Made by a program: the position numbers and the translations under genes | NCBI GenBank assembly: GCA_013042375.1 | Contig: JABDQH010000007.1 | Span: 1-51,960 of the forward strand | DNA from: Woeseiaceae bacterium | GTDB lineage: Bacteria > Pseudomonadota > Gammaproteobacteria > Steroidobacterales > Woeseiaceae | Direction of reading: 5' to 3' | DNA length: 51,960 bases | Shown: piece by piece, positions 28,511 to 32,951 of the stretch | Layout: each line of letters begins with the position of its first letter | How positions within the stretch are numbered: position 1 is the first letter of the stretch | The notes under the pieces: generated by a model | The model's input: only the letters and a program-made list of their open reading frames with translations | Database searches by the model: none | Told to the model about the DNA's origin: nothing

Positions 28511-28843
28511 ATGTCACGCGCCGTTTATGCCCTGAACCTTTTCAACGTTGCCGACAAGCAGGAGTACCTCGCGTATTCGCGTCGCTCCGCCGTCGAGGTC
28601 GCCAGGCATGGCGGGCGCGTCGTCGCGCTGGGCAAATTCCGCGAGGCGGCCGTCGGCGACGTGGCGCCGCGTAATGTCCTGATCCTCGTCGAATGGGAAT
28701 CGAAGCAGGCATTCGACGGCTATATCAGCGACCCGGCGATCGCCGACCTGCACGGGCACCGCGAAGCGGGTACCAGCCAGTACGTCTGGCACCTGTTCGA
28801 CAAGCTCGAGGACCTGCGCCCGATCTTCAAATCTCAGGCCTGA
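28511..28843 (+). CDS. DUF1330-type dimeric alpha/beta-barrel protein
   Basis: A 110-residue small cytosolic protein. The pattern ALNLFNVADKQEYLAYSRRSAVEVARHGGRVVALGKF followed by VLILVEWESKQAFDGYISDPAIADLH resembles DUF1330 and related ferredoxin-like dimeric barrels. The function is unknown. It begins six bases after the ATPase gene, so the two are probably co-transcribed, and it ends directly against the convergent Kazal gene with no spacer. Confidence 0.65.
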   Translation: MSRAVYALNLFNVADKQEYLAYSRRSAVEVARHGGRVVALGKFREAAVGDVAPRNVLILVEWESKQAFDGYISDPAIADLHGHREAGTSQYVWHLFDKLEDLRPIFKSQA

Positions 28844-29698
28844 TCAGTCACCGATGCAGGCACCGGCGTAGGCCTTGGTCACGCCGGCGTTGTCGAGCTG
28901 GCAATCGTTGTCGTAGGTAACGCCGTCCAGGCCGCAGACCGGTGCGTATTCGTCGGGACAGTTACGACCGAGGTTTTCGCAGACGCCGGCGTAGTCGACG
29001 CGCACGCCGCGACGCTCGGAATGACACGCGTTGCTGTAGGTCATGCCGTCGGCACCGCACACGGGCACGAACAGGACAGGGCAGGCGCGAACGTTGCATG
29101 CCCCTTCGACGAACGTGGTGATGCCTTCGGCCTCGGCCGCGCAGGCGTTGTCGTACGTCTCACCGTCGTCGCCACAGACCGGCGCATAGACCTGCGGGCA
29201 ATTGTCGAAGTCGCAGTTGCCCTTGCGCTGCACCGGGACGCGCTCCATGCCGGCCTCGCACCGGTTGATGAACGTCCGGCCGTTCATGCCGCATACGGGT
29301 TCCAGGACACTGGGACAGCCATTCGGCGTGCACGCCCCGAGCCCCGCGATCTCGATCTTCGACTGCAGTGCAAAGCACTCGTTGATGTAGGTATTGCCGT
29401 CGGCGCCGCAGACCGGATCGAACGTGTCGGCGCAACCGGTCGCGCGTTCTTCGGCACAGACGCCGCGGCTGGCGACCTCGACGCCGGCCGCTCCCGCGAC
29501 ACAGTCGTTGCTGTAGGTCTTGCCGTCAACGCCGCAGACCGGATCGTACTGCTGCGTGCACGCGGTACCCCCCTTCTGGGCGATGAGTACCGGATCGCCC
29601 GGGAAAATCGACTGCAGGTCGACGTCGGCGGCAAGGGCCTGGACGCTTGCGGCCAGCGCGAATAGCGCGACGATGAATCGACAGGTGCTTTGGTGCAT
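28844..29698 (-). CDS. Six-domain Kazal-type protease inhibitor-like secreted protein
   Basis: A 284-residue secreted protein: a signal peptide (residues 1 to about 24, ending ALA), then six tandem Kazal-like domains. Every domain has exactly the spacing C-x7-C-x10-C-x14-C with the core PVCG-x-(D/N)-G-x-(T)-(Y/F)-x-N, matching classical Kazal cysteines 2, 3, 4 and 6; cysteines 1 and 5 are missing. By alignment with ovomucoid, the P1 residues are Q, D, S, Q, V and D from the N-terminal domain on, so trypsin-type targets are unlikely. It is the last gene of the apparent envC-ctpA-yibQ operon, 19 bases after yibQ, with ribosome binding site AAGGAA. Inhibition of serine proteases is inferred; a purely structural role is possible. 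Confidence 0.85.
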   Translation of the reverse strand: MHQSTCRFIVALFALAASVQALAADVDLQSIFPGDPVLIAQKGGTACTQQYDPVCGVDGKTYSNDCVAGAAGVEVASRGVCAEERATGCADTFDPVCGADGNTYINECFALQSKIEIAGLGACTPNGCPSVLEPVCGMNGRTFINRCEAGMERVPVQRKGNCDFDNCPQVYAPVCGDDGETYDNACAAEAEGITTFVEGACNVRACPVLFVPVCGADGMTYSNACHSERRGVRVDYAGVCENLGRNCPDEYAPVCGLDGVTYDNDCQLDNAGVTKAYAGACIGD

Positions 29699-30502: not shown

Positions 30503-31723
30503 CTATCGTGCGTTGCTGTGCATGACAGGACGTGCCCGCAGGTGCTCGATCGCTTCGGCGAGCTGCATGTCGGCCTCGCGGTTGACGACGCCAGACAGAC
30601 TCAGGTCCGGGTGGCCGGGCGTGTCGTCGATGAACACGTCCGGCGCGACGCCGACTTCGTGGATCGAATCGCCCGACGGCGTGTAGTAACGCGAGGTCGT
30701 CAACTTGATCGCGCGTCCTTTCGACAGGGGCACGACGGTCTGCACGAGCCCCTTGCCGAAGGTCGCGGTACCGACGACCAGCGCCCGGTCATGATCCTGC
30801 AATGCGCCCGCGACGATCTCCGACGCTGACGCCGATCCGCCGTTGACGAGGACGACCATCTCGGCGCCGTCGAGGACATCGCCGCGATGCGCGGAGCGCG
30901 TGAAGCGCGAGTCCAGGCTGCGGCCCTCGGAGGACACGATGACGCCGGCATCGAGAAACAGGTCGGCGACCTCGACCGCGGCGTCGAGCACGCCGCCCGG
31001 ATTGTTGCGCAGATCGAGGACCAGGCCCTCGAGCATGCTGCCCGCGGCGTGCTGCAGGTCGTCGATCGCCCCGCGCAGCTCGCGCGCCGTGTTTTCGTTG
31101 AACTGGCTGACCCGGACATAAGCGTAGGCAGGCGCCAGGAACTCACTGTGTACGCTGGCCACGCGTATGACCTGCCTGCGCATGCGGTGATCGATGACGT
31201 CGCTGTCGCGCAATACGCTGACCCTGACTTGCGAGCCCGCGTGGCCGCGCAGCTGGCCGATGGTCTCGTGCAGGTTGCCGGTTTCCAGCGCGATGCCATC
31301 CACGGCAACGATTTCGTCGCCGCTGCGCAGTCCCGAGCGCGCCGCCGGCGAGCCTGCGATCGGCGTGACAACGAGGACCCTGCCGTCGACCTCGTCGATC
31401 TCGATGCCGATTCCCGTGTAGCTGCCTGTCGTGCTGATGCGGATGTCGCGATATTCGCTGGCGTCGAGGTACTGCGAGTGCGCGTCGAGGTCGCTGACCA
31501 TGCCGCGGATCGCGCTTTCCATGAGTTCTGCATCGTCGAGCGGCTCAACGTAGTCGCGCTTGACGCGCTCGAGCACCTCGGCGAACAGCCGTGCCTGCTC
31601 GAAAGCGAGCTCCTCGTTGCCGGGTTGCTCGCCGCTGCCGAAGCGTCCGCCGCCGAAAGACAGGCTCAGGCCCAGCACGAGACCGATGACGACAACCAAA
31701 ACTGCGCGAACTTTCAATGACAT
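30503..31723 (-). CDS. ctpA: S41 C-terminal processing peptidase
   Basis: Periplasmic serine protease of the CtpA/Prc group (406 aa). An N-terminal signal or anchor (residues about 5-24) is followed by a PDZ domain (about 100-180, STTGSYTGIGIEI...GLRSGDEIVAVDG) and the S41 catalytic domain. The Ser-Lys dyad is Ser299 in NGGSASASE and Lys324 in GTATFGKG, with the standard 25-residue spacing. Homologues degrade cell-wall hydrolases or process membrane proteins. It lies between envC and yibQ, so a link to peptidoglycan turnover is likely. Confidence 0.93.
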   Translation of the reverse strand: MSLKVRAVLVVVIGLVLGLSLSFGGGRFGSGEQPGNEELAFEQARLFAEVLERVKRDYVEPLDDAELMESAIRGMVSDLDAHSQYLDASEYRDIRISTTGSYTGIGIEIDEVDGRVLVVTPIAGSPAARSGLRSGDEIVAVDGIALETGNLHETIGQLRGHAGSQVRVSVLRDSDVIDHRMRRQVIRVASVHSEFLAPAYAYVRVSQFNENTARELRGAIDDLQHAAGSMLEGLVLDLRNNPGGVLDAAVEVADLFLDAGVIVSSEGRSLDSRFTRSAHRGDVLDGAEMVVLVNGGSASASEIVAGALQDHDRALVVGTATFGKGLVQTVVPLSKGRAIKLTTSRYYTPSGDSIHEVGVAPDVFIDDTPGHPDLSLSGVVNREADMQLAEAIEHLRARPVMHSNAR

Positions 31724-31793: not shown

Positions 31794-32951
31794 TCAGCCG
31801 CCCGGGCGTCGCGTGATCCAGCCGCGCGGATCTTCGGGAAGCGTCCCGCGGCGCAGCTCGAAATAGAGGCTGGCCTGCGGCTGTCCGCCACTGTCCCCGA
31901 CCGTCGCGATGACGTCGCCGGGCGCGACCCAGTCGCCCGGGTTCGCTCGAATCGTCTCGTTGTAGCCGTACAGGGTCATGTAGCCATCGCCATGATCAAC
32001 GATAACCAGCAGGCCCATGCCTGCGAGCCAGTCGGCAAACGCGATGCGCCCATGGTAAATCGCGCGCACCTCGCGCCCCCGCGGCGCCGCGAGCACCACG
32101 CCGTTCCACTTGATGCCGCCGGCTCGTGGCTGCCCGAAGTCGTGCAGCAGCGTCCCGGCAACCGGCCAGGTGAGCCGGCCCTTGAGTTGGGAGAACGCTT
32201 GCTCCGAGCTGATCGGGTACTCGGAGAGAATGCTCGTCAGCTCGGCGATCAGGCGGGACAGGTCATTTTCCTGTGCGGCGAGACGGTCGACCTCGCGGCC
32301 TTCGTCGGCAAGCCGGCGCTCGAGCGAAGCCAATAGCGACTTGCGGCTTTCCTGTAACTCGTTAAGGTGGCCCAGCTCGGCGTAGCGTTCGTCCACGAGG
32401 CGCGTCAGCCGGGCCTCCTCGGCGGCAATCTGCGCACGCAGCTCGTCGAGCCTGCGGATCTCGGTGACGACGGCTTCGATGTTGTCGGCACGATAGTCGT
32501 TAAGGTAGCGATAGTAGGCCATGAGCCTGCCGAGCGTTGCCGGATCGCGCTGGTTCAGGAGAAGCCGTATTTTCTCCTGGTTGCCGCTCATGTACGCAGC
32601 CCGGACCTGTGACGCGAGCGCCTGTGATTCCGCGTCGAGGCGTGCCTCACGCTCGGCGAGTTCCGCGTCGAGCCGCCCTTTCCTTGTCAAGGTGTAGCTC
32701 TGCTCGCGTTCGATCTCCTTGATGCGCTTGCGTTGTGCGGCGATCGTGATTTCGACTTCCTGCAGGTCGCGCGTCACCCGGTCGCGCTCGGCGGCGGCGG
32801 CGTCCATGCTCTTCTTGAGATCGGAGATGCGCTCGCGCACCTCCGCGAGCTCCTGCTCCTTGACCTTGGCGAGATCGCCGCCGGTATCCTGGGCCCGCAC
32901 AGGCGCCACGCATACGAGTGCAATCAGGATCGCGGCGATTCGGGTCGACAT
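31794..32951 (-). CDS. envC: Murein hydrolase activator EnvC-like protein
   Basis: Periplasmic activator of cell-separation amidases (385 aa). It has a signal peptide (1 to about 20, PVRAQ), a long coiled coil (about 25-245, rich in E, R, L and A) and a C-terminal LytM/M23 domain from about residue 260. The LytM zinc ligands are lost: the usual H-x-G-x-D is replaced by GIKWNGV, and the last His position reads YGYN after HGDGYMTL. EnvC proteins are similarly degenerate and activate AmiA/AmiB rather than cutting the wall. It is the first gene of the minus-strand operon, 106 bases from divergent yibN. Confidence 0.9.
   Translation of the reverse strand: MSTRIAAILIALVCVAPVRAQDTGGDLAKVKEQELAEVRERISDLKKSMDAAAAERDRVTRDLQEVEITIAAQRKRIKEIEREQSYTLTRKGRLDAELAEREARLDAESQALASQVRAAYMSGNQEKIRLLLNQRDPATLGRLMAYYRYLNDYRADNIEAVVTEIRRLDELRAQIAAEEARLTRLVDERYAELGHLNELQESRKSLLASLERRLADEGREVDRLAAQENDLSRLIAELTSILSEYPISSEQAFSQLKGRLTWPVAGTLLHDFGQPRAGGIKWNGVVLAAPRGREVRAIYHGRIAFADWLAGMGLLVIVDHGDGYMTLYGYNETIRANPGDWVAPGDVIATVGDSGGQPQASLYFELRRGTLPEDPRGWITRRPGG

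Follow-up and report, generated by a model that had tools for sequence, protein, structure and literature searches.

The Kazal gene and its genomic context

The window, i.e., the complete stretch of 51,960 nucleotides from a Woeseiaceae bacterium that was analysed, carries on its reverse strand a gene (28844..29698, stop codon at 28844-28846) with an ATG start that encodes a Kazal protein of 284 amino acids. At the N-terminus, a hydrophobic stretch forms a putative signal peptide of the Sec type that would end near residue 24 (29627..29698, reverse strand); it was recognised from the sequence, and its cleavage site was placed by eye. Six tandem domains follow in the same chain, all encoded on the reverse strand: domain 1 (residues 47-81, 29456..29560), domain 2 (residues 89-123, 29330..29434), domain 3 (residues 128-162, 29213..29317), domain 4 (residues 167-201, 29096..29200), domain 5 (residues 206-240, 28979..29083) and domain 6 (residues 247-281, 28856..28960). 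The residue two positions after the first cysteine of a domain, which we take to be P1 in Kazal numbering, is Q, D, S, Q, V and D in domains 1 to 6, respectively. Each domain exactly follows the pattern C-x7-C-x10-C-x14-C. The 24 cysteines present from domain 1 onward amount to four per domain, and the classical Cys1 and Cys5 are missing in all six. A preliminary description of this DNA had listed six tandem domains of identical spacing, the lack of these two cysteines and the same P1 letters, and is borne out on all three points.

Kazal_1 of Pfam matches six stretches of the protein (E 1.4e-48, 163.1 bits, cut-off 21), and Kazal_2 reaches 144.5 bits (cut-off 22.8). Six Kazal_2 matches were found in the window's genome, which is 84% complete, and every one of them lies inside the 28844-29698 gene. 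Furthermore, 33 orthologues align with the window protein at 57-74% identity. The six-domain Kazal array is therefore not a product of chance. Cysteines and spacing were compared in an alignment of 34 of the 36 orthologues, from which L041 and L042 were omitted because contig ends cut them. The cysteines are kept except in L038 and L036, and domain 4 is one residue shorter in L030, L034 and L036.

For broader comparisons, 79 loci were gathered and 74 of them were used, consisting of L043-L115 (73 loci) and the window; L119, a fragment, and five Bacteroidota loci were omitted. Note that L043-L115 overlap the contigs of many of the genomes carrying G numbers, and the two sets are thus not independent. 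A simple hydrophobic signal-like pattern fits 70 of the 74 loci. Judged by sequence, the Kazal protein is probably exported, and since a lipobox-like pattern is present in 6 of the 74 loci, soluble secretion is not certain for all of them.

Upstream and on the reverse strand, 19 bases from the Kazal gene, resides a gene for a divergent polysaccharide deacetylase (PF04748; 29718..30494), known as YibQ. It is preceded by a gene for a ctpA-like C-terminal processing peptidase of family S41 with a PDZ domain (30503..31723, reverse strand), and the presumed operon is headed by a gene for an EnvC-like M23 protein (31794..32951, reverse strand), which scores 190 bits, under the NCBIfam EnvC cut-off of 270 bits. 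Taken singly, yibQ and ctpA each precede the Kazal gene, on its strand, in 71 of the 74 loci. They occur there together in 70; one locus has yibQ only, one has ctpA only, and in two the contig starts less than 500 bases before the gene. In six loci from a genus with small genomes, ctpA was found upstream and yibQ was not. In other families of the order, ctpA lies beside yibQ at 10 of the 12 yibQ loci, in genomes without a Kazal match. The Kazal gene thus either entered a cluster that already existed or has disappeared from it.

The gap between yibQ and the Kazal matches exceeds 550 bases in 23 of 71 loci. Eight gaps were inspected, and in seven of them (L043, L044, L045, L047, L058, L059 and L060) the longest same-strand frame looked methyltransferase-like by eye; in the eighth, L056, a same-strand frame of 206 residues ranks second. 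Genome G033 has no yibQ match, and its Kazal piece sits at a contig start. On the other side of the Kazal gene, a convergent DUF1330 gene (28511-28843, forward strand) abuts the Kazal stop codon with no base in between. By tblastn, it was found at the window's own locus only; many of the compared loci extend just 1.5 kb beyond the gene.

Occurrence of the gene

Matches to the Kazal protein were obtained in 36 of 60 genomes, the own genome included. All 36 belong to the same genus, of which 37 genomes were searched, and the 23 genomes of other families within the order gave no match. Across the Woeseiaceae, 99 of 107 genomes were matched, among them 43 of the 45 of good quality, and all 12 genera are represented; some of these matches are pieces at contig ends. 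The Woeseiaceae genomes without a match are G752, G757, G760, G030, G722, G726, G728 and G731. G030 belongs to the window's genus, is 99% complete and has no yibQ match either. For the genus with small genomes (assemblies of 1.1-2.0 Mb), six of nine genomes were matched, and the three misses are 52-73% complete.

Kazal_1 matches were obtained for 41 genomes in an order-wide sample of 196, 40 of which belong to the family; G805, outside the family, has one match. The corresponding numbers are 16 of 369 for the class sample, where a single match, in one case with an in-frame stop, was obtained for each of the 14 genomes outside the genus, and 13 of 299 for the phylum sample, where, apart from the own genome, the other 12 have one or two matches. 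A second, isolated piece resembling domain 6 is present in L202 (G713:C2:40500-43200), in a genome that also has a full array, and an extra match resembling it, with an in-frame stop, lies on G775:C47.

Cysteine pattern and predicted fold

The classical six-cysteine subtype, with the pairs C1-C5, C2-C4 and C3-C6, does not describe the window protein, in which each domain holds C2, C3, C4 and C6 only. The missing C1 and C5 rule out this subtype and not the Kazal family, because two-disulfide Kazal inhibitors exist. With their 7-10-14 spacing and without C1 and C5, the domains correspond to the GmSPI-2 type. The atypical LEKTI/EPI1 type, which is devoid of C3 and C6, was excluded, as both cysteines are present in six of six domains. 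At the positions tested, C1 and C5 are both missing in 449 of 449 domains from the 74 loci, which argues for a joint loss of Cys1 and Cys5; the search for C1 was confined to -2/-3 or, for one-domain proteins, to -8, and domains with an extra cysteine after C3 were not counted. Domain 3 of L038, which shares its contig with L090, has Phe and Tyr in place of C2 and C4, a joint loss that would be expected of a bonded pair. In L036 (as L095), C4 alone was lost in domain 3. We infer disulfides C2-C4 and C3-C6 for the window protein. The reduced cysteine pattern in itself makes a domain neither strange nor inactive, given that GmSPI-2 with the same spacing is an inhibitor.

The best of five AlphaFold models, obtained with a 34-row alignment, has a mean pLDDT of 84.5 and a pTM of 0.62, with 233 of 284 residues at or above 70. 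In this model, which is a prediction and not a solved structure, the order strand-strand-helix-strand recurs in each of the six domains. The weakest two models have mean pLDDT values of 66.0 and 63.9, and given these values and the pTM, the model does not establish how the domains are arranged relative to one another. In Foldseek, single domains were matched by GmSPI-2 (4hgu; rank 14, E 2.3e-3, 1.4 Å, TM 0.82 by target, 51% identity) and by LDTI (1an1; rank 16, TM 0.90 by target, 46% identity). Ranks 1-6 were taken by follistatin chains that superpose poorly (TM at most 0.18, 16-18 Å rmsd), their rank reflecting repeated small domains. The window domains are accordingly predicted to adopt the Kazal fold, and the opposite outcome, which the preliminary description had named as a refutation, did not arise.

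Domain identity and reactive-site loops

When eight seven- and eight-domain proteins and L108 were scored against profiles of the six domains, domain 1 came first and domains 3, 4, 5 and 6 came last and in this order. The extra domains sit between domains 1 and 3, and most of them score nearest domain 2 or 1. P1 is Asp or Glu in all 18 domains between 1 and 3 of the eight seven- and eight-domain proteins, and in 8 of the 9 such domains of L195, L206 and L207. A Kazal protein with eight domains is encoded by G777, a one-contig genome of 4,059,891 bases. The six loci of the genus with small genomes have six domains, of which domain 4 is one residue shorter, and widely different P1 letters. Here, domains 5 and 6 were recognised in all six loci and domain 3 in four (one tie, one nearest domain 2), and the first two domains had no clear assignment; in domains 3, 5 and 6, most residues beyond the P3-P3' loop are kept while the P1 letters differ. 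By profile scoring, domains can thus be assigned firmly for the window's genus and a number of other genera, and less so at the N-terminal end of more distant proteins. The linkers between domains 2 and 6 have fixed lengths of 4, 4, 4 and 6 in most sequences.

Loop residues were compared in a near set of 65 sequences, which includes the window and leaves out L108, and in a distant set of 19. Where a protein has over six domains, its first domain, its last four and the domain preceding domain 3 entered the comparison. The commonest P1 residues of the near set are M, E, S, K, N/R and R in domains 1 to 6, held by 44, 58, 51, 30, 18 and 39 of the 65 sequences, respectively. Domain 2 has E or D in 63 of 65 and domain 4 K or R in 38 of 65; 12 different residues occur in domain 5, and in domain 6 the 39 sequences with R are accompanied by 10 with D and 9 with N. 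Poorly conserved P1 loops, together with a lack of inhibition, had been named in the preliminary description as a refuting finding; the commonest P1 is well kept in domains 1-3 and less so in domains 4 and 5, which, next to the predicted Kazal fold, makes for a mixed outcome. The same description stated that none of the domains would favour trypsin. This stands for the window's species, which is unusual in this respect: 61 of the 65 close sequences, window included, carry Lys or Arg at P1 in at least one domain. The four without it are the window protein, L087, L093 and L115.

An aromatic residue occupies P2' in 65, 61, 4, 61, 65 and 61 of the 65 close sequences for domains 1 to 6 and in 19, 16, 16, 9, 19 and 19 of the 19 distant ones. 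In every one of the six domains, 63-65 of the 65 close sequences retain Asn at P15'. From the distant sequences it appears that domain 3 probably lost its aromatic P2' in the close relatives of the window, and that domain 4 varies. Going by its loop, domain 3 may not function as a head in these relatives. The idea that it is no head across the whole family was rejected in view of the 16 distant sequences with an aromatic P2' there.

Substitution rates were calculated from 66 of the 74 loci, all with six domains; the seven- or eight-domain proteins of L100, L102, L103, L106, L107, L109, L110 and L111 were omitted. The mean rate at P1 was 1.78 compared with an average of 1.02 and was highest in domains 4 and 5. 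Of 31 non-cysteine offsets, 26 were slower than P1 and four were faster. Among 209 positions, P1 of domain 4 ranks 8 as a local rate peak, and the other five P1 sites rank 40 to 137. A hypervariable P1 as proof of inhibition is unsupported, as other positions are equally fast, and for the same reason the P1 rate is not evidence for selection on specificity.

Fourteen residues distinguish their domain near and far alike when thresholds of 90% near, 75% distant and under half in other domains are applied; L108 was counted in both sets here. Thirteen of them belong to domains 3 (N139, R146, E148 and Q157), 5 (A224, E228, R229 and A237) and 6 (N270, A271, A276, Y277 and A278) and one, A185, to domain 4; all lie outside P3-P3'. 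R146, E148, A224 and A185, which we take to be P16' or P18' by ovomucoid numbering, could be in contact with a bound protease. The other domain-special residues would agree equally with inhibition, interdomain packing or an unchanging partner.

Possible functions of the Kazal protein

The best reading of these data is a secreted multi-headed canonical inhibitor of serine proteases of families S1/S8, which we hold with moderate confidence. The choice posed earlier between a multi-headed inhibitor and a repeat scaffold was a reasonable one, as were the Kazal identity and the missing Cys1 and Cys5. The window protein would be an exported six-headed inhibitor of the two-disulfide Kazal type, with seven- or eight-headed counterparts in several other genera. 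Each working domain would offer its rigid canonical loop to serine proteases, either of S1 type (trypsin/chymotrypsin) or of S8 type (subtilisin), and with a different P1 in each domain, one molecule could block several proteases of differing preference. In close relatives, domains 1, 2, 4, 5 and 6 have loops that seem fit for inhibition, and domain 3 resembles a spacer or docking domain. The role would most likely be protection from extracellular proteases, be it those of competitors or grazers or the cell's own secreted subtilases. In short, a many-headed shield or switch against protein-cutting enzymes appears likely. More tentatively, the protein may be a core trait of Woeseiaceae whose heads are adjusted at P1 from lineage to lineage, with constant surfaces on domains 3, 5 and 6 that bind the chain either to an unchanging partner or to itself. 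A proteolytic sediment bacterium would thereby gain wide protection from the proteases of both neighbours and grazers; this fuller picture is doubtful.

Several points weaken the inhibitor reading: the four-cysteine domain 1 of CrSPI-1 did not react with subtilisin when alone (PMC3082530), P1 evolves fast but not exceptionally so, G030 lacks the Kazal gene and has the most S8 matches of the eight genomes checked, and proline at P2 is regarded as unfavourable in ovomucoid. Loop chemistry is more telling than the P1 rate, given that in the close sequences the aromatic P2' is present in five domains and Asn P15' in six.

Rather unlikely, and yet the strongest of the alternatives, is a non-inhibitory repeat scaffold or adaptor of the envelope that retains its loops as remnants and works with CtpA or the YibQ-like or EnvC-like protein. 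Kazal-like modules serve as non-inhibitory parts in follistatin and agrin. The constant company of ctpA and yibQ (70 of 74 loci), the fixed linkers between domains 2 and 6 and the domain-special residues kept near and far in domains 3, 5, 6 and 4 agree with such a role, as does the genus with small genomes, where non-loop residues of domains 3, 5 and 6 persist while P1 letters differ. Remnant loops, however, do not sit well with an aromatic P2' kept in five loops and Asn P15' in six domains of close relatives. The first six Foldseek places held by follistatin chains lose their weight through the poor superposition, and the gene order loses some through the ctpA-yibQ pairs (10 of 12 loci) in other families of the order that have no Kazal match.

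Within the inhibitor reading, we consider it improbable that the protein specifically regulates the cell's own exported serine proteases, such as subtilases or other S1 enzymes, and not foreign ones. Candidate targets are available: all eight genomes checked have 4-11 S8 and 3-6 S1 matches each, and an S8 match lies on the Kazal contig at a distance of about 14 kb in G022 and about 18 kb in G005. Moreover, Woeseia oceani cultures have trypsin and chymotrypsin activity that was ascribed to S1/S8 enzymes (PMC7082342). In the window's genome, however, the window's contig has neither an S8 nor an S1 match, P1 differs between close species, and G030, which has no Kazal gene, has 11 S8 matches, the most of the eight genomes.

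Kazal inhibitors act on S1/S8 enzymes, and their loops fit the active sites of these two families. The neighbouring CtpA, earlier put forward as an assay target and suggested by gene order only, is by profile match an S41 peptidase with a PDZ domain whose gene accompanies yibQ at 10 of 12 loci in other order families without any Kazal gene, and is thus a very improbable target.

The abundance of the hosts gives the question some weight. According to surveys, 1-22% of the 16S sequences obtained from marine sediments belong to Woeseiales, and Woeseia oceani XK5 encodes 215 peptidases, or 53 per Mb, in its closed genome (PMC7082342). A gene matched in 99 of 107 Woeseiaceae genomes has a role that is not described in the literature matches listed. 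Woeseiaceae provide an orthologous set with natural P1 variation, and probably a cultured species, for work on the function of bacterial Kazal proteins.

Comparison with known Kazal proteins

The earlier statement that the reduced type is little characterised applies to bacterial proteins, as far as the literature listed goes, and not to animals, where GmSPI-2 and domain 1 of CrSPI-1 have been characterised. Among the literature matches listed, most subscription papers being outside their scope, no title describes a bacterial four-cysteine multi-Kazal protein. The literature search found no paper on Woeseiaceae together with Kazal, and phrases for bacterial Kazal proteins likewise returned none. 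A Kazal-like protein of Nitrosomonas europaea is mentioned in PMC1236909, and Kazal and Nitrosomonas are both mentioned in PMC13055281. The word 'Kazal' is absent from the main text of a paper on Woeseiaceae (PMC12175321), and PMC7082342 states that it leaves its matches to peptidase inhibitors unreported. The four-cysteine Kazal domain type is thus already known, while a six-headed, family-wide and syntenic bacterial gene seems undescribed.

Repeated Kazal domains occur in bacteria also in the Bacteroidota loci L116-L118, L120 and L121. These retain C1 and C5 in 35 of the 39 domains counted (three of five loci), whereas the window protein lacks both. In L116 the array is part of a 2903-residue open frame. 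Other Pseudomonadota, among L159-L174, have four-cysteine Kazal proteins as well. Domains were counted in 10 of these 16 loci, and at the positions tested all 16 domains lack C1 and C5, but the proteins have one or two domains instead of six. Closeness to the Kazal proteins from the rest of the class is unsupported: these have one match each, and both C1 and C5 are found in 11 of the 12 loci counted. In the remaining one, L149, the positions tested hold C5 but not C1; of the 14 class loci in all, L146, with an in-frame stop, and L148 were not counted.

The atypical domains of EPI1 and LEKTI resemble the window protein in having two disulfides within multi-domain inhibitors, and EPI1a is a stable subtilisin inhibitor (PMC1236909). 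They lack C3-C6, however, and the window domains lack C1-C5. LDTI, the leech-derived tryptase inhibitor (PDB 1an1, 2kmo), has the same core as the window domains (TM 0.90 by target) and Pro-Lys in the aligned P2-P1 slots, as does domain 4 of many relatives. It differs by its single domain and by the additional C1-C5 disulfide of a group II inhibitor (PMC3082530), since the window domains are without C1 and C5. CrSPI-1 from horseshoe crab, a two-headed non-classical inhibitor (PDB 3qtl, 3pis), has four cysteines in domain 1. This domain has two disulfides, Pro at P2 and Tyr at P2', and its loop occupies the subtilisin site in the crystal; domain 2 with Glu at P1 binds subtilisin tightly (PMC3082530). 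P2 Pro is also common in the window's family. Unlike the six domains of the window protein with two predicted pairs each, CrSPI-1 has two domains, the second of which contains three disulfides.

GmSPI-2 from wax-moth silk has two disulfides, 5-24 and 13-39, and Thr at P1, and strongly inhibits subtilisin and proteinase K (PMC4169406). Domain 1 of the window protein aligns with it without gaps over all four cysteines. Like the window domains, GmSPI-2 has four cysteines with 7-10-14 spacing (51% identity over 39 columns), and it pairs C2-C4 and C3-C6 without C1-C5, which are the pairs inferred for the window protein. GmSPI-2, however, is a single domain with P1 Thr from an insect, whereas the window protein comprises six such domains and comes from a bacterium.
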